Assembly: GCF_017744695.1 (NCBI RefSeq)
Contig: NZ_JAGIAS010000011.1
Location: forward strand, 124,001-188,000
Length of the DNA stretch: 64,000 bases
Origin: Dyadobacter sp.
GTDB taxonomy: Bacteria; Bacteroidota; Bacteroidia; Cytophagales; Spirosomataceae
Direction: 5' to 3'
Each line of letters opens with the position of its first letter. The stretch's first letter is position 1. Shown piece by piece: positions 50,002 through 61,391 of this stretch. The notes beneath the pieces are model-generated. The model was not told the DNA's origin and made no database searches. It was given only the letters and a program-made list of their open reading frames with translations. Both the position numbers and the translations under genes were made by a program.

Positions 50002-53000
50002 ATGCTGAACAAAATCATCGCCTTTTCGGTCAGCAACAAGCTTATCGTGGGACTGGTCGTCCTTGCGCTGATAGGCTACGGCAGCTACGAGCTTACCCGG
50101 CTGCCGATCGACGCCGTGCCCGACATCACCAACAACCAGGTGCAGGTAATTACCATCGCGCCATCCTTCGGTGCGACCGATATCGAAAGACTCGTCACCT
50201 TTCCCATTGAGCAGGCCAACAATAACATTTCGGGACTGAAAGAAATACGCAGTTTCTCCCGCTTTGGCCTTTCCCTGGTCACGATCGTTTTTGAGGACGA
50301 CGTGGATGTGTACTGGGCACGACAGCAGGTTTCCGAACGCCTTGGCAAAGTACAGGGGCAAATCCCGCAAGGCATTGGTACGCCGGAGCTTGGGCCCATC
50401 AGCACGGGACTTGGCGAGATTTACCAGTATGTGGTCCGCGCCCGGGAGGGTTACCGGCACCGTTACGATGAAACCGAGCTCCGCACGATTCAGGATTGGA
50501 TCGTCAGAAGACAGCTCCTCGGCGTGAAGGGCGTTGCGGAAGTGAGCAGTTTCGGCGGCAAACTCAAACAGTATTCGATCGAAGTGGACCCTGCGAAACT
50601 GCTCTCCATGGGGCTGAATATCAATGATGTATTCACCGCATTACAGGAAAACAATGCCAATACGGGAGGGGCCTACATCGAAAAGGGGCCTTCGGTACTT
50701 TATATCCGCAGCGAGGGGCTTGTGGAAAATCTGGACGACATTGGCGGTATCGCCGTCAAAAACCTGCCCGACGGACAACCGGTTTTCATCCGCGACGTCG
50801 CCGAAGTGAATACAGGCTTCGCAACCCGATACGGCGCCATGTGTTATAACGATCAGGGAGAAGTCTCGGGCGCTGTGGTCATGATGCTCAAAGGAGCCAA
50901 CAGCAGTGAGGTGATCGCCGCTGTGAAGCAACGCGTAGCGCAGATTCAGAAGACGCTTCCCGAAGGTGTGGTGATAGAACCATTCCTGGACCGTACCAAG
51001 ATGGTCAACAACGCCATCGGGACTGTTGAAAAAAACTTGCTGGAAGGCGCATTGATCGTCGTTTTCGTACTCGTGCTCTTTCTGGGGAATCTCAGGGCAG
51101 GTTTATTGGTGGCATCGGTCATTCCGTTGGCTATGCTTTTTGCGGTCATCATGATGAACACGTTCGGCGTCAGCGGCAATCTGATGAGCCTTGGGGCACT
51201 GGATTTTGGCCTGATTGTCGACGGTGCGGTGATCATTGTCGAAGCGGTAATGCATCAGATCGCCCGGAGCACCCAATTTTCCGGCACCGGCCGGCTCACA
51301 CAGAAACAAATGGACGAGCAGGTCAACGAGTCGGCCGACCGCATGATGAACAGCGCTGTATTCGGACAGATGATTATTTTAATCGTATACCTGCCCATAT
51401 TCACCTTACAGGGCATTGAAGGAAAAATGTTCAAGCCTATGGCACAAACTGTGGCATTTGCACTGCTGGGTGCCTTTCTGCTTTCACTCACATACATTCC
51501 TATGATGAGCGCGGTATTTTTGAGCAAAAAAGTGAGCCACGCGCCCAACTGGTCGGACCGCGTCATGAACAAACTTACGGCCGGTTACGTGGTCGCGCTG
51601 GAAAAGCTATTGCATCTGCCCAGGCTCGTCATACTATCCGCATTACTCCTTTTTGCTGCGGCGATATTTACGCTTACCACGCTGGGAGGTGAATTCATAC
51701 CTGCATTGGAAGAAGGGGATTTCGCGGTCGATACGCGCGTGCTCACAGGCAGCAGCCTGACCACCACGATTACCAATACCACCAAGGCGGCGCACATTCT
51801 TAAAAGCCGTTTCCCCGAGGTCGAAAAAGTGGTCACCAAAATCGGTAGCGGCGAAGTGCCTACCGACCCGATGCCTATGGAAGCGAGCGATATGATGGTG
51901 ATCCTGAAAGACAAAAGCGAATGGACTTCGGCCAGGACCTTCCCCGAGCTTTCTGAAAAAATGGGCCGCGCCTTGCAGGAAGTGCCCGGAGTGACAGCCG
52001 GATTTCAGTTTCCGGTGCAAATGCGCTTCAATGAGCTCATGACCGGTGCCAGGCAGGATGTGGTTTGCAAAATATTCGGAGAAAACCTGGATACGTTGGC
52101 ATTATATGCGGCCCGGCTGGGCAAGCTTGTCAATCAAGTCGATGGAGCCCGGAACCTGTACGTCGAAGCTGTATCCGGGCTGCCGCAGGTAGTGATCCGT
52201 TACAACCGGAACACCATTGCGCAATTCGGCCTTACCGTAGGGGCAGTGAACCGCATCATAAACACCGCGCTCGCCGGCCAAAGTACGGGGATGGTGTTTG
52301 AGGGAGAAAAACGCTTTGACCTGGTTGTCCGGCTTAGTCCGGCACAAAAAAGGAATGTAGCGCTCATTCGCGATCTGCTGGTACCCGTTTCCGGCGGGAA
52401 CCAGGTACCGCTTTCGCAACTTGCCGACATCCGCATTGTTTCCGGCCCTAATCAGATTCAGCGGGAGGATGCCAAGCGTCGTATTGTGGTGGGCTTTAAT
52501 GTGGCGGGGCGTGACGTACAGAGCATTGTAAGCGAGCTTCAAACGAAAGTCGGCAAAAGCCTGCGGCTTCCCGCAGGGTATTATGTGACCTATGGCGGGG
52601 CCTTTGAAAACCTGAATGCCGCCAAAGCGCGGTTGATGATCGCCGTTCCCGTATCGCTCGTGCTGATCTTCGTGCTGCTTTATTTTGCTTTCAACTCGGT
52701 GCGCGACGGGCTGCTGATTTACTCGGCGATTCCACTATCGGCTATCGGGGGGATTTTCTTGCTGGCCCTGCGTGGAATGCCGTTCAGTATCAGTGCCGGG
52801 ATCGGCTTTATCGCGCTGTTCGGAGTGGCGGTACTGAACGGGATCGTGCTCGTAGCCGAGTTCAACCGCATTCGAAAGGTGGGTGAAAGCGCTATTCAGA
52901 AGGCCATCCTGGAAGGTGCCAGCCACCGGCTTCGCCCGGTCCTGATGACCGCGTTTGTCGCCTCTCTGGGCTTTTTGCCGATGGCCGTCAGCAATGGTGC

Positions 53001-54345
53001 CGGAGCGGAAGTGCAACGGCCATTGGCCACCGTGGTGATCGGTGGCCTGCTGGTCGCGACGGCGTTGACATTATTCGTTTTACCGGTCCTGTACATGGTA
53101 TTCGAAAGCCGGTTCCATATCAAAGCGGGCGCGGCCGCACTCCTGATCCCTGCATTCCTCTTTGCACCGGGTCAGGCCCGGGCTCAAAAGCAGATCGGGT
53201 TGGAAACAGCCATCAACCTGGCCCTGAAAGACAACAGCCAGTTGAAAAGCGAAAAATTACGGGCGGAATACCGCCGGGCATTGATGAAAACTGCCGTTAC
53301 TCTACCGCAAACCGCTGTGAGTATAGAGGCGGGACAGATCAACAGCGCTTACACTGACACCCGGTTTGCATTATCCCAATCCGTGTTTCTTCCGGTGGTG
53401 TACAGGAGGCAACGTTCGCTTCTGGAACAAGAGTATGAGGCAGGCGCCCTGCAAGCATCTGCCACCGCGCTCGATCTGCGGCGTAATGTCACGCATCAAT
53501 TCTACAGGTTACTTTACCTCCGGCAAAAAGCCCGGCTTCTGGGCTCGCTCGACAGCCTGTTCGGGGCGGTCGCTGCACGCGCAAGCGAGCGCCTGGCGCG
53601 GGGAGAGACCAACGTACTGGAAAAGACTAGTGCCGAAATGCAGCTCGGGCAAATCAGGCAGCAGCGGGGGCAGCTGGATGCCGACCATCGGCTCGCGCTT
53701 ATCACATTCAACCTGCTGCTGAACGGATCAGAATCCTATGAACCGGACGACGGCCCGCTCATTTTTCCGGCGCCCGGGTATGCGGATACGGCCAAACTAT
53801 TATCGCACCCCTATATGCAGCTGGCCAGTCGGCAGCAAACCGTTGCCGGCGCAGCCATTGCTGTCGAAAAGGCCCGCCTTTTGCCGGAGTTGAGCCTTGC
53901 TTATAATAATATGAGCATGCGGGGGACGGGAGCCGACAATAAACTGTACAATGGCTGGCCGCGCTTTCAGGCCACGCAAGTCGGAGTAGGCATTCCCCTT
54001 TTCGCGGGTGCGCAAAAAGCGCGTATTCAGGCAGCCAGGATCGCCGCCGAGGCTGCCCGGGAACAATATCAGAGCGAGCACCGGCAGTTTGCAGCTCGTT
54101 ACAAAGCGGCACTAACAGGTTACCTTCAGTTGCTCGAACGGCTCGGCTACTATCAGAATTCCGCAGTGCCCAATGCCGAGCTGGTTGTTTTGACGGCCAC
54201 CCGTCAACTTCAGGAAGGTAATATCAATTACCTGGAATGGGGCCAGTTGATCGCACAGGCCACCTCGATCAGGAGCGAATACCTGGATACGGTCGCCAAT
54301 CTGAATCAAAATGCCATAGAACTGGACTATTTCCTTAGCCAATAA
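50002..54345 (+). CDS. CusA/CzcA heavy-metal RND transporter fused to a C-terminal TolC/CzcC-like outer membrane factor
   Basis: N-term LNKIIAFSVSNKLIVGLVVLALIGYGSYELTRLPIDAVPDITNNQVQVIT; RND core; after about residue 1060 KQIGLETAINLALKDNSQLKSEKLRAEYRRAL... typical of TolC-type OEP. Confidence 0.95.
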   Translation: MLNKIIAFSVSNKLIVGLVVLALIGYGSYELTRLPIDAVPDITNNQVQVITIAPSFGATDIERLVTFPIEQANNNISGLKEIRSFSRFGLSLVTIVFEDDVDVYWARQQVSERLGKVQGQIPQGIGTPELGPISTGLGEIYQYVVRAREGYRHRYDETELRTIQDWIVRRQLLGVKGVAEVSSFGGKLKQYSIEVDPAKLLSMGLNINDVFTALQENNANTGGAYIEKGPSVLYIRSEGLVENLDDIGGIAVKNLPDGQPVFIRDVAEVNTGFATRYGAMCYNDQGEVSGAVVMMLKGANSSEVIAAVKQRVAQIQKTLPEGVVIEPFLDRTKMVNNAIGTVEKNLLEGALIVVFVLVLFLGNLRAGLLVASVIPLAMLFAVIMMNTFGVSGNLMSLGALDFGLIVDGAVIIVEAVMHQIARSTQFSGTGRLTQKQMDEQVNESADRMMNSAVFGQMIILIVYLPIFTLQGIEGKMFKPMAQTVAFALLGAFLLSLTYIPMMSAVFLSKKVSHAPNWSDRVMNKLTAGYVVALEKLLHLPRLVILSALLLFAAAIFTLTTLGGEFIPALEEGDFAVDTRVLTGSSLTTTITNTTKAAHILKSRFPEVEKVVTKIGSGEVPTDPMPMEASDMMVILKDKSEWTSARTFPELSEKMGRALQEVPGVTAGFQFPVQMRFNELMTGARQDVVCKIFGENLDTLALYAARLGKLVNQVDGARNLYVEAVSGLPQVVIRYNRNTIAQFGLTVGAVNRIINTALAGQSTGMVFEGEKRFDLVVRLSPAQKRNVALIRDLLVPVSGGNQVPLSQLADIRIVSGPNQIQREDAKRRIVVGFNVAGRDVQSIVSELQTKVGKSLRLPAGYYVTYGGAFENLNAAKARLMIAVPVSLVLIFVLLYFAFNSVRDGLLIYSAIPLSAIGGIFLLALRGMPFSISAGIGFIALFGVAVLNGIVLVAEFNRIRKVGESAIQKAILEGASHRLRPVLMTAFVASLGFLPMAVSNGAGAEVQRPLATVVIGGLLVATALTLFVLPVLYMVFESRFHIKAGAAALLIPAFLFAPGQARAQKQIGLETAINLALKDNSQLKSEKLRAEYRRALMKTAVTLPQTAVSIEAGQINSAYTDTRFALSQSVFLPVVYRRQRSLLEQEYEAGALQASATALDLRRNVTHQFYRLLYLRQKARLLGSLDSLFGAVAARASERLARGETNVLEKTSAEMQLGQIRQQRGQLDADHRLALITFNLLLNGSESYEPDDGPLIFPAPGYADTAKLLSHPYMQLASRQQTVAGAAIAVEKARLLPELSLAYNNMSMRGTGADNKLYNGWPRFQATQVGVGIPLFAGAQKARIQAARIAAEAAREQYQSEHRQFAARYKAALTGYLQLLERLGYYQNSAVPNAELVVLTATRQLQEGNINYLEWGQLIAQATSIRSEYLDTVANLNQNAIELDYFLSQ

Positions 54346-57509: not shown

Positions 57510-57550
57510 GCCGGGCAGGCCGCATTCATCAAAAATTTTTTCTGAATTTA

Positions 57551-57602
57551 TTTGTGAAACCGATTGGTTGCACATATATTTGCAACCAATCGGTTTCACA
57601 AA
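57551..57602 (+). promoter_or_regulatory. 22-bp perfect inverted repeat (8-nt spacer) embedding a Bacteroidota-type promoter (TTTG-N20-TATATTTG)
   Basis: tttgtgaaaccgattggttgca-catatatt-tgcaaccaatcggtttcacaaa; -33 TTTG 57551..57554, -7 TATATTTG 57575..57582; ATG at 57619. Confidence 0.85.
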
Positions 57603-57618
57603 TAAACAATCAACAGCT

Positions 57619-57999
57619 ATGAAACAGAAAATTTTGTCGGTTCTCTCCCTATTGACAGGGCTGATGTTCATCAATGCGGGTCTGGATAAATTCCTGCACT
57701 ACATGCCCGTACCGGCCGATTTGCCGGAAAAAATGGTAAAAACAGGCATGGCGTTTGCGCAGATCGGCTGGCTGATGCCGCTGGTGGGCGCCGTGGAATT
57801 GGCCGGAGGCCTGCTGCTGGCCGTGCCCAGGACCCGCGCACTCGGGGCTATTGTGCTCCTGCCAGTCCTTACGGGTGTTCTGCTCACCAATGCCACCGCC
57901 GCCCCCTCGGGCCTGCCCATCGTTTTTATTTTTATCGCGGTGATCGCCTGGGTGATCGTCGACAACTGGGGAAAGTATTTGCCGATCGTATCCAGGTAA
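57619..57999 (+). CDS. DoxX family protein
   Basis: LSLLTGLMFINAGLDKFLHYMPVPADLPEKMVKTGMAFAQIGWLMPLVGAVELAGGLLLAVPRTRALGAIVLLPV. Confidence 0.88.
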   Translation: MKQKILSVLSLLTGLMFINAGLDKFLHYMPVPADLPEKMVKTGMAFAQIGWLMPLVGAVELAGGLLLAVPRTRALGAIVLLPVLTGVLLTNATAAPSGLPIVFIFIAVIAWVIVDNWGKYLPIVSR

Positions 58000-58047
58000 T
58001 GCAGCCGGGATGAAGTTATCTTGCACGAAATTATCCGAGATAATCCC

Positions 58048-58368
58048 ATGAGAAGAGATATTTTCCAGGCCATCGCCGACCCGACCCGCAGGGCCATTAT
58101 CGTACTGATCGCCGTGCAGGCCATGACACCCAATGCGATCGCGGAGCATTTCGACACGACCCGTCAGGCCGTTTCGAAACATTTGAAAGTCCTGACTGAA
58201 TGCGAACTGGTCCAACCGCAACAGCAGGGTCGGGAAATCTATTACAAACTTCAGATCGATAAAATGAAGGAGATCGATCATTGGCTGGAACAGTTCCGAA
58301 AGATCTGGGAAAGTCGGTTCGATCAACTCGACAACCTTTTAGAAACACTTAAAAAACAACAGCAATGA
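58048..58368 (+). CDS. ArsR/SmtB-family wHTH regulator
   Basis: [68 protein letters not shown]. Confidence 0.93.
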
Positions 58369-58874
58369 AACACAACCTTCAATTCGACTTCGTAGCAGAC
58401 AAAGAAAACAATACATTGACCGTACGCCGCGAATTCCTCGCCGGCCGCCAGCTGGTGTGGGATTGCTATACCAAAAGCGAACTGCTGGACCAATGGTTTG
58501 CCCCCAAGCCGTTGACCACCAAAACCAAGTCTATGGACTTCCGCGAAGGCGGCCACTGGCATTACGCGATGGTAGAACCCAACGGCAACGAATACTGGGG
58601 CTGGACTGACTATATCAAAATTCAGCCGATCGACTTTTACACTTCGACTGATGCTTTTTCAAATGCCGAAGGCGAAATCAACGAGTCGCTGCCGCGTGCC
58701 GAATGGGTAGTTACCTTTACCGACAAAGGCGAAAATGCGGTGGTAGAAACGGTGGTAACCTACAAATCCCTGGAAGATCTGGAAGCGACATTGCAGATGG
58801 GCATGGAACAAGGCATGCTCGCAACACTCGAAAAACTGGACGAATTGCTGGTTAAGTTGACCGGAAGGGCATAG
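58365..58874 (+). CDS. SRPBCC (AHSA1-like) domain protein
   Basis: [63 protein letters not shown]; 4-bp overlap with ArsR gene. Confidence 0.93.
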
Positions 58875-58966: not shown

Positions 58967-59533
58967 ATGAGAAAGCTGATCCTATTTGCACACATGTCCC
59001 TTGATGGTTTTGCCGGTGACAAAAACGGCGGCCTTGGCTTTTTGTCCTACAACAGCGAGCTGCAACAGTTCGCGGATGAGCTGGTCAAAACAGTGGGCGC
59101 CCCGGTTTACGGCAAAAACACCTACCATTTAATGGAAGGCTACTGGCCGACGGTATTGAACGACCCGAATGCAAACGGTCACGCACTGGCGCATGCACAA
59201 TGGGTGCAGGAAATTCCCAAGATCGTCTTCTCGACAACCTTAGCCAGTGCCGACTGGAACAATACCACACTGATCAAAGACAACGTCGTGGATGAGGTGA
59301 ACAAATTGAAACAGCAACCAGGCAAAGACCTGGTGATATTCGGCAGCCCTGGTCTGGCTAAAAGTCTGACAAAACTTGGACTGATAGACGAATACAAACT
59401 GACTCTGCATCCGGTGATACTGGGAGAAGGGATCAGCCTGTTCGATAGAGATGCCCCCATGAGCAATCTGGTATTGCAGGAATCGAGAACGCTCGGCTCC
59501 GGTGTCGTTACGTTGCACTACACGAAGCGATAG
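58967..59533 (+). CDS. Dihydrofolate reductase family protein (RibD C-terminal-like)
   Basis: MRKLILFAHMSLDGFAGDKNGGLGFLSYN; KDLVIFGSPGLAKSLTKLGLIDEYKLTLHPVILGEGISLF. Confidence 0.93.
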   Translation: MRKLILFAHMSLDGFAGDKNGGLGFLSYNSELQQFADELVKTVGAPVYGKNTYHLMEGYWPTVLNDPNANGHALAHAQWVQEIPKIVFSTTLASADWNNTTLIKDNVVDEVNKLKQQPGKDLVIFGSPGLAKSLTKLGLIDEYKLTLHPVILGEGISLFDRDAPMSNLVLQESRTLGSGVVTLHYTKR

Positions 59534-59756: not shown

Positions 59757-60320
59757 ATGAGAACCCTGCCTTCCTCTTTATCCGACGATCAGCTCGCGGC
59801 GCTGCTAAGAGAGGGCGAGGAACGGGCATTCGATGAAATCTACACGCGGTATTGGGACAAGCTCTACTATACCGCGCACCGGATGGTGAAGTCGGCAGCC
59901 GTGGCGGAAGAGATCACACAGGATACATTCATGCTCCTGTGGATTAAGCGGGAAACGCTCGAAATACAATCGCTGGCGCCTTATCTGGCGGCCATGCTCC
60001 GCTATGAAGTATACCGCTACCTGGCTAAATCCAAACAGGCAGAAGAAATCGAACAGTCGATCCGGCACGAGGCTGCACCCTCGGTATCGATGGAGCAGGA
60101 GATTGAAAACCGCCTGCTGCTCGAAATCATTACCAATCTCACCAATCGCCTGCCCGAAAAATGCAGGCTTGTTTTCCAATACAACAAATTACACGATCGC
60201 TCCCTGCCCGACGTCTGCGAAGAGCTGAACATCTCCCCCAAAACCGCCGAAGCGCACCTGACCAAAGCATTGAAGATCGTCAGGGCCAGCCTGAGTAATG
60301 TAGTGGCGTTGCTGTTGTGA
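59757..60320 (+). CDS. RNA polymerase sigma-70 factor, ECF (FecI-like)
   Basis: FDEIYTRYWDKLYYTAHRMVKSAAVAEEITQDTFMLLW; LPDVCEELNISPKTAEAHLTKALKIVR. Confidence 0.93.
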   Translation: MRTLPSSLSDDQLAALLREGEERAFDEIYTRYWDKLYYTAHRMVKSAAVAEEITQDTFMLLWIKRETLEIQSLAPYLAAMLRYEVYRYLAKSKQAEEIEQSIRHEAAPSVSMEQEIENRLLLEIITNLTNRLPEKCRLVFQYNKLHDRSLPDVCEELNISPKTAEAHLTKALKIVRASLSNVVALLL

Positions 60321-60419
60321 GGGCCGGCCGCCGACCACCCACAAAAAAATCACCGCCCCACTAAGGGGTTTTTCCTCCATCTCCCCTCTATGTGTTGCAA
60401 AGGGTCAATCCGCTTTGCA

Positions 60420-61391
60420 ATGACACAGGAATATATCAGATCGCTTGCCAGGAAATTCTTCGACGGGACCGCTACGGAAGAAGAAAAACAGCTATTGCAC
60501 GAGTGGTACGACCGGCTCGCCGACGACCAAAGCCCGGAGACCATTGTCACACCGGCGGGGGAAAGCGCCGACGAAATCCGTGACCGCATGCACGCGGGCC
60601 TGCAAAACCGGCGCGGGCAATACATGCCCGCGAAACGGTTCGGCTGGATACAGAGGCTCACAGCCTGGTCTTCGGCAGCCGCGGCGATCGTTCTGGTCGG
60701 TTTTTTGCTCTGGACCAACGAACGAAAGCCTGCTGCAAGCGACCTCCGGCTGGTGGCGGCACCGCTCGGCAAGACCATCCGGGTAAACCTGCCCGACGGC
60801 TCGCATATCTGGCTGAATGCAGGCTCGACACTCAGCTATCCCGTAGCATTCAAAGGAAAAACCCGCGAAGTAGTATTGCGCGAGGGACAGGCATTCTTTG
60901 ACATCGCCCACGATAAAACCAAACCATTTATCGTCCATGCCAAGACACTGGACATTACCGTCTTAGGTACTTCATTCGATGTTAAAGCCTACAAAAACGA
61001 CCCGGATATCAAAGTGACGGTCAAGACCGGCAAGGTCGGTGTGCAGGTTCGTGACAAACCGGAACAGCCCGCACTGATGCTGCTGCCCGCCGAGCAGGCC
61101 GTGGTACCGGAAAAAACGCAAAAAATCCATGTGAGTGAAATCAGCAAACCGGCCATTGCCCCCTGGAAGGACAACAGGATGGTGTTCGAGGACGAACTGC
61201 TGGTGGAAGTGCTGCATGCATTGGAAAGAAAGTATAACCAGCATATCCTTATCGAGAAACCAGGCCTTTCCACCGAGAAAATATCGCTGACCCTCGACGA
61301 CCAACCCATGAACGATGTGCTGAAAGTCCTGGGTTTCTCCAAGAATTTCAATTATTCACAACTAAACGACAGTACGATAGTAATCAGATAG
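60420..61391 (+). CDS. FecR family anti-sigma factor
   Basis: VNLPDGSHIWLNAGSTLSYPVAFKGKTREVVLREGQAFFDIAHDKTKPFIVHAKTLDITVLGTSFDVKAY. Confidence 0.95.
   Translation: MTQEYIRSLARKFFDGTATEEEKQLLHEWYDRLADDQSPETIVTPAGESADEIRDRMHAGLQNRRGQYMPAKRFGWIQRLTAWSSAAAAIVLVGFLLWTNERKPAASDLRLVAAPLGKTIRVNLPDGSHIWLNAGSTLSYPVAFKGKTREVVLREGQAFFDIAHDKTKPFIVHAKTLDITVLGTSFDVKAYKNDPDIKVTVKTGKVGVQVRDKPEQPALMLLPAEQAVVPEKTQKIHVSEISKPAIAPWKDNRMVFEDELLVEVLHALERKYNQHILIEKPGLSTEKISLTLDDQPMNDVLKVLGFSKNFNYSQLNDSTIVIR

Follow-up and report, generated by a model that had tools for sequence, protein, structure and literature searches.

The perfect inverted repeat that precedes the doxX-like gene of this Dyadobacter sp. very probably serves as a twin operator: through it, the ArsR-type protein whose gene starts at 58048 would exert negative autoregulation on its operon. 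A twin site of this kind is linked to arsR and to doxX across genera, and this linkage makes the 58048 protein, and not a TetR, the likely autorepressor. The window referred to below is the whole stretch of DNA that was analysed, 64,000 nucleotides long; its features are collected in Table 1.

The repeat consists of two perfect 26-bp arms separated by an 8-nt loop; an alternative description gives 30-nt arms with a 97% match and a spacer of 0. The first-pass annotation had placed the repeat correctly and had recognized its perfection and its 8-nt spacer, but had limited the arms to 22 bp. Such a structure stands alone in the window, where the runner-up perfect inverted repeat is 12 bp long (spacer up to 40), and the longest one found in 20 first-order Markov shuffles is 13 bp. 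As single-stranded DNA, the repeat folds with -29.4 kcal/mol (z = -12.4). Each arm contains one core, AACCGATTGGTT on the left and AACCAATCGGTT on the right, in keeping with an earlier reading of a near-palindrome within each arm. The exact AACCRATYGGTT palindrome is present at five places in the 7.8-Mb genome: the two arms in the window, two intragenic places (in a clpC-like and an asparaginyl-tRNA-synthetase-like gene, both named by eye) and one place on contig C13.

Table 1. Features of the inverted repeat and of the genes that follow it (positions in the window)
Feature	Position	Strand	Description
Left perfect arm	57547..57572	+	Inverted-repeat arm, containing most of operator O1
-33 element TTTG	57551..57554	+	Outer edge of O1; TTG part conserved
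Candidate operator O1, GTGAAACCGATTGGTTGCAC	57554..57573	+	Core AACCGATTGGTT at 57558-57569
-7 element TATATTTG	57575..57582	+	Between both operator cores
Candidate operator O2, TTGCAACCAATCGGTTTCAC	57580..57599	+	Core AACCAATCGGTT at 57584-57595; transcription start expected beneath
Right perfect arm	57581..57606	+	Inverted-repeat arm, containing most of operator O2
doxX-like gene (MauE/DoxX, 126 aa)	57619..57999	+	HMM; first gene of the operon
GTTATCTTGCAC stretch and imperfect ATTATCCGAGATAAT	58026..58043	+	In the doxX-arsR gap; conserved in 4 Dyadobacter genomes
ArsR-type winged-helix regulator (106 aa)	58048..58368	+	HMM; proposed autorepressor
AHSA1/SRPBCC-domain protein	58365..58874	+	HMM; start overlaps the end of arsR
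RibD_C (DHFR-like) gene	58967..59533	+	HMM; possible last gene of the operon

The repeat is best read as two candidate operators rather than as one long site. O1 is a 20-bp near-palindrome, GTGAAACC-GATT-GGTTGCAC, of the general type GTGAAACC-N4-GGTTGCAC, and O2 is a second one of the same length, TTGCAACC-AATC-GGTTTCAC; their centres are 26 bp apart, with the -7 element TATATTTG in between. A comparison of 99 distinct sites shows variation at the four centre bases and in the outer flanks, and mostly preserved AACC/GGTT quarters. In many orthologues of the site the two arms match badly although both AACC-N4-GGTT cores persist, which indicates that the arms need not form a long perfect repeat and that the copy in the window is an unusually symmetrical example of the twin site. 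The initial proposal of a repressor site is supported by this comparison, except that a single long operator gives way to two. The O1-O2 spacing ranges from 24 to 27 bp among loci, so that a cooperative contact between two dimers is unsupported, and we dropped such a contact as a rigid requirement. One locus (L053) has two twin sites in tandem ahead of a single arsR, one with AACCTTTTGGTT arms and the gene-proximal one with AACCGATCGATT / AATCGATCGGTT arms.

Judged by comparison, the promoter inside the repeat is real and oriented toward the operon. The primary promoter of Bacteroidota, that of sigma-ABfr, has the consensus TTTG / TAnnTTTG (PMC7366714), and the window has a TTTG at -33 and a matching -7 element, 20 nt apart and both within the repeat, at the coordinates initially assigned to them. 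These elements are conserved in one direction only. In 99 distinct twin sites that were selected via their arms, conservation of the -7 bases TAtATTTG amounts to 95-99% (77% for the third base), whereas the mirror positions to the left of the dyad are variable. For the -33 element, conservation of TTG reaches 94%, versus 21% at the mirror position, in a set whose search pattern itself partly imposes the -7 element. Such one-sided conservation is independent of the symmetry of the repeat, and argues for a promoter facing the operon inside it, as the first-pass annotation had supposed.

As for the genes behind this promoter, the SRPBCC and RibD_C genes are separated by 93 bp, and the latter is a possible last member of the operon. 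The arsR-SRPBCC pair is also present in Spirosoma and Hymenobacter. Between doxX and arsR, the GTTATCTTGCAC / ATTATCCGAGATAAT stretch is a weak candidate for an internal (second) promoter serving arsR. Elsewhere in the window, a single frame of 1447 aa (50002-54345) resembles, by eye, an RND heavy-metal efflux pump with a fused C-terminal outer-membrane-factor (TolC-like) part, and 59757-61391 holds an ECF sigma factor (HMM) followed by a FecR-like anti-sigma gene (by eye), a pair that is typical of Bacteroidota.

The 58048 protein is of the ArsR type (HTH_5 / HTH_metalloreg): it scores 79.3 bits against NF033788 (cut-off 55), 35.1 bits against PF01022 (cut-off 22) and 40.3 against PF12840 (cut-off 27). 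Its match to the SdpR family, NF033789, spans the whole model (E = 9e-22) with 76.8 bits for a cut-off of 100; the protein is related to this family and is not filed as a member. Reading of its sequence revealed no alpha3N metal motif of the ELCVCDL kind, though it may have non-Cys metal sites. The single Cys (LTEC) is located after the recognition helix and is common to most paralogues.

The association between the twin site and arsR extends through the phylum. The site is found upstream of 103 of 117 ArsR homologues, whereas all 117 downstream control stretches of equal length lack it, counts that are inflated by kinship among genomes and that involve orthology judged by similarity. Among the 14 homologues without a match, several have visibly degenerate copies, and L102 and L103 are paralogues with other half-sites. 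The usual distance between operator and arsR start is 8-32 bp; it is about 450 bp in four Dyadobacter genomes, with doxX interposed, and about 580-590 bp in four other genomes, with a DHFR-like gene interposed. Sites found through ArsR depend on ArsR, and the reverse search, conducted with a 29-nt DNA pattern and no ArsR in the query, provides an independent test on a small number of loci. This pattern matched in 28 of 292 genomes drawn from the order and in 15 of 346 drawn from the phylum (the reversed control pattern gave 0 matches), and an ArsR homologue was close by in 28 of the 29 DNA-only loci fetched; in the remaining locus (L215), an SRPBCC gene lies directly 3' of the operator. The 58048 protein, already suggested as the nearest candidate regulator, is supported by the way the repeat tracks arsR through the phylum, and a search of relatives for regulator genes that co-occur with the repeat points to ArsR.

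doxX is the other recurrent neighbour. Absence of the repeat upstream of orthologous doxX genes had been named beforehand as part of the grounds for abandoning the idea. This genomic part did not refute it: among the 30 closest homologues of doxX, 26 have the twin site just before their start, in Dyadobacter, Chitinophaga, Mucilaginibacter, Pedobacter and others. The order with doxX first is shared by Chitinophaga, Mucilaginibacter, Pedobacter and Sporocytophaga. More distant doxX homologues are without a twin site, and any linked arsR there sits upstream of doxX. In one genome (G071), doxX and arsR are unlinked and have one copy of the twin site each. A DHFR-like gene takes the position of doxX behind the operator at four loci (L052, L057, L163 and L185).

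Orphan twin operators, with no arsR nearby, were also observed (L077, L087, L215, L252, L257 and L221). Each is followed by a single gene of the DHFR-like, SRPBCC or doxX type, which at L077 and L087 is DHFR-like. Their arrangement suggests regulation in trans, and doxX, SRPBCC and DHFR-like genes would thus be recurrent targets, partly in trans.

The genome encodes eight ArsR proteins of this kind, the 58048 protein and seven paralogues. In six of the seven (L101-L106) a -7-like element is likewise flanked by two palindromes, several of these pairs having altered half-sites, and no twin palindrome was seen upstream of L107, the eighth protein. The half-sites of seven proteins, including that of the window, are GMAACC, GCAACC, GTAGYY, GTAAGT, GCAAGT, GAAACC and ACAACC. 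In these seven, the recognition helix has, directly following AVS/AIS, K in AACC-type proteins versus Q or L in the AAGT-type proteins L103 and L104, a lead, and only that, toward a recognition-helix residue that may track the half-site. With its shared frame and changed half-sites, this paralogue set offers a natural library from which one could learn the bases read by each repressor residue, and the paralogue operators might yield promoters for Bacteroidota that are tightly repressed and insulated from one another.

From these comparisons we infer binding, the involvement of dimers, repression, the start site and the nature of the inducer, in the following scheme. One dimer of the 58048 protein would occupy each palindrome, with O1 taking up the gap that separates the -33 from the -7 element and O2 covering the stretch just 3' of the -7 element, where transcription is expected to start. 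With either or both operators occupied, polymerase carrying the main Bacteroidota sigma factor would be excluded from the promoter, and the protein would repress the SRPBCC gene and its own gene along with doxX until released by a signal, probably not a metal. The system would be an ordinary autoregulated operon, with a palindromic operator on its own promoter and linkage to the regulator gene, as judged by comparison. Counting against our scheme, the protein stays below the SdpR family cut-off, and the orphan copies (L077, L087, L215, L252 and L257) show that adjacency to arsR is unnecessary, so that another paralogue could bind the site in the window.

The wider form of this objection, that the repeat is bound by a TetR- or MarR-type repressor or by an ArsR paralogue encoded elsewhere, appears improbable to us. 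The genome does contain 19 TetR_N matches, trans regulation occurs to judge from the orphan operators of relatives, and the twin site of L101, a paralogue on contig C14, is a related one whose half-sites are GCAACC. However, the phylum-wide linkage of the twin site is to ArsR, and most paralogues own an operator each, several with different half-sites. Moreover, the TetR_N profile has no match on the contig of the window, where a tetR adjoining or divergent from the operator would lie; this extends to the whole contig the initial remark that no TetR gene is visible, and TetR was dropped as the regulator. That the repeat acts as an RNA or DNA hairpin, either an attenuator, a terminator of the upstream DUF6454 gene or a cruciform, is less credible still, and we hold it to be very unlikely. 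Its fold is very stable, and arms from the same locus match each other better than arms shuffled among loci. Yet the -7 element is in the loop and conserved in one direction only, so that transcription of the operon would begin within the right arm and leave the left arm out of the RNA; there is no T-run after the repeat on the + strand, the cores are kept in relatives whose arms are mismatched, and the Rfam matches are confined to microRNAs and fall short of the gathering scores, as expected of any hairpin. Given the promoter in the loop and the Rfam result, we rejected a hairpin RNA.

Long perfect inverted repeats are typical of the ends of mobile elements. However, the location of the present repeat before doxX or arsR is fixed in relatives across genera, the five exact cores in the genome include its own two arms and no further copy of the repeat exists, and shuffles reach 13 bp at most. 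A chance palindrome or the remnant of a mobile element (a MITE or a transposon end) is therefore refuted for practical purposes. Somewhat less remote, though still rather unlikely, is a concerted evolution of the arms, in which template switching at the quasi-palindrome would keep them mirror images even at positions that the protein does not need; the operator pair would then be maintained partly by mutation rather than by selection. Arms of the same locus are complementary at 255 of 396 centre positions; shuffling of the arms within close clusters gives an expectation of 229. In the strictest test, an exchange of arms between nearest relatives, 14 informative pairs spoke for concerted evolution and 6 against (p = 0.03, borderline), and the test was not significant when limited to close pairs. 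Slid and direct positions show co-change between sister loci almost as often, and with the weakness of the sister-pair swap this led us to drop template switching as the main reading.

With the twin operator as the preferred reading, the many unnamed arsR-SRPBCC-doxX operons of Bacteroidota gain a concrete candidate regulator and operator, and the twin-site motif can be used for finding the regulon in any genome. The operator design is widely conserved; searches of open-licence papers retrieved no description of it, and it is apparently undescribed for Bacteroidota in the papers searched.

Several known systems invite comparison. The promoter of SmtB is likewise accompanied by more than one palindrome, and the 58048 protein shares with the ArsR/SmtB metalloregulators (SmtB, CmtR, ArsR) the winged-helix domain, the NF033788 match above cut-off and Pfam HTH_5. 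It differs from these metal sensors by the lack of an ELCVCDL-type alpha3N motif, its only Cys being after the recognition helix. SdpR is an autoregulated ArsR-type protein, whose family HMM (NF033789) is matched over its whole length, in contrast with a score that stays below the cut-off; no SdpI-like gene was seen here. The promoter resembles that of sigma-ABfr in its TTTG at -33, its TATATTTG at -7 and the 20-nt gap, and differs in that two repressor palindromes alternate with these elements.

Among systems examined by experiment, the closest is that of Rv2034 in M. tuberculosis, an ArsR-type autorepressor of Rv2034-Rv2036 with an SRPBCC-type (polyketide_cyc2) neighbour in the operon, and whose footprint, CCGTAAGT-N4-ACTTACGG, lies at about -30 to +8 of its own promoter (PMC3338718). 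One palindrome is described there, versus two in the window, where the half-sites are GAAACC/GCAACC; the window also has doxX in the operon and a Bacteroidota promoter, and the two systems are likened by their design. In both systems, however, an ArsR-type protein with an SRPBCC-type gene beside it is accompanied by a palindrome made of two 8-bp halves and a 4-bp centre, and paralogue L103 of the present genome shares the Rv2034 half-site, GTAAGT.
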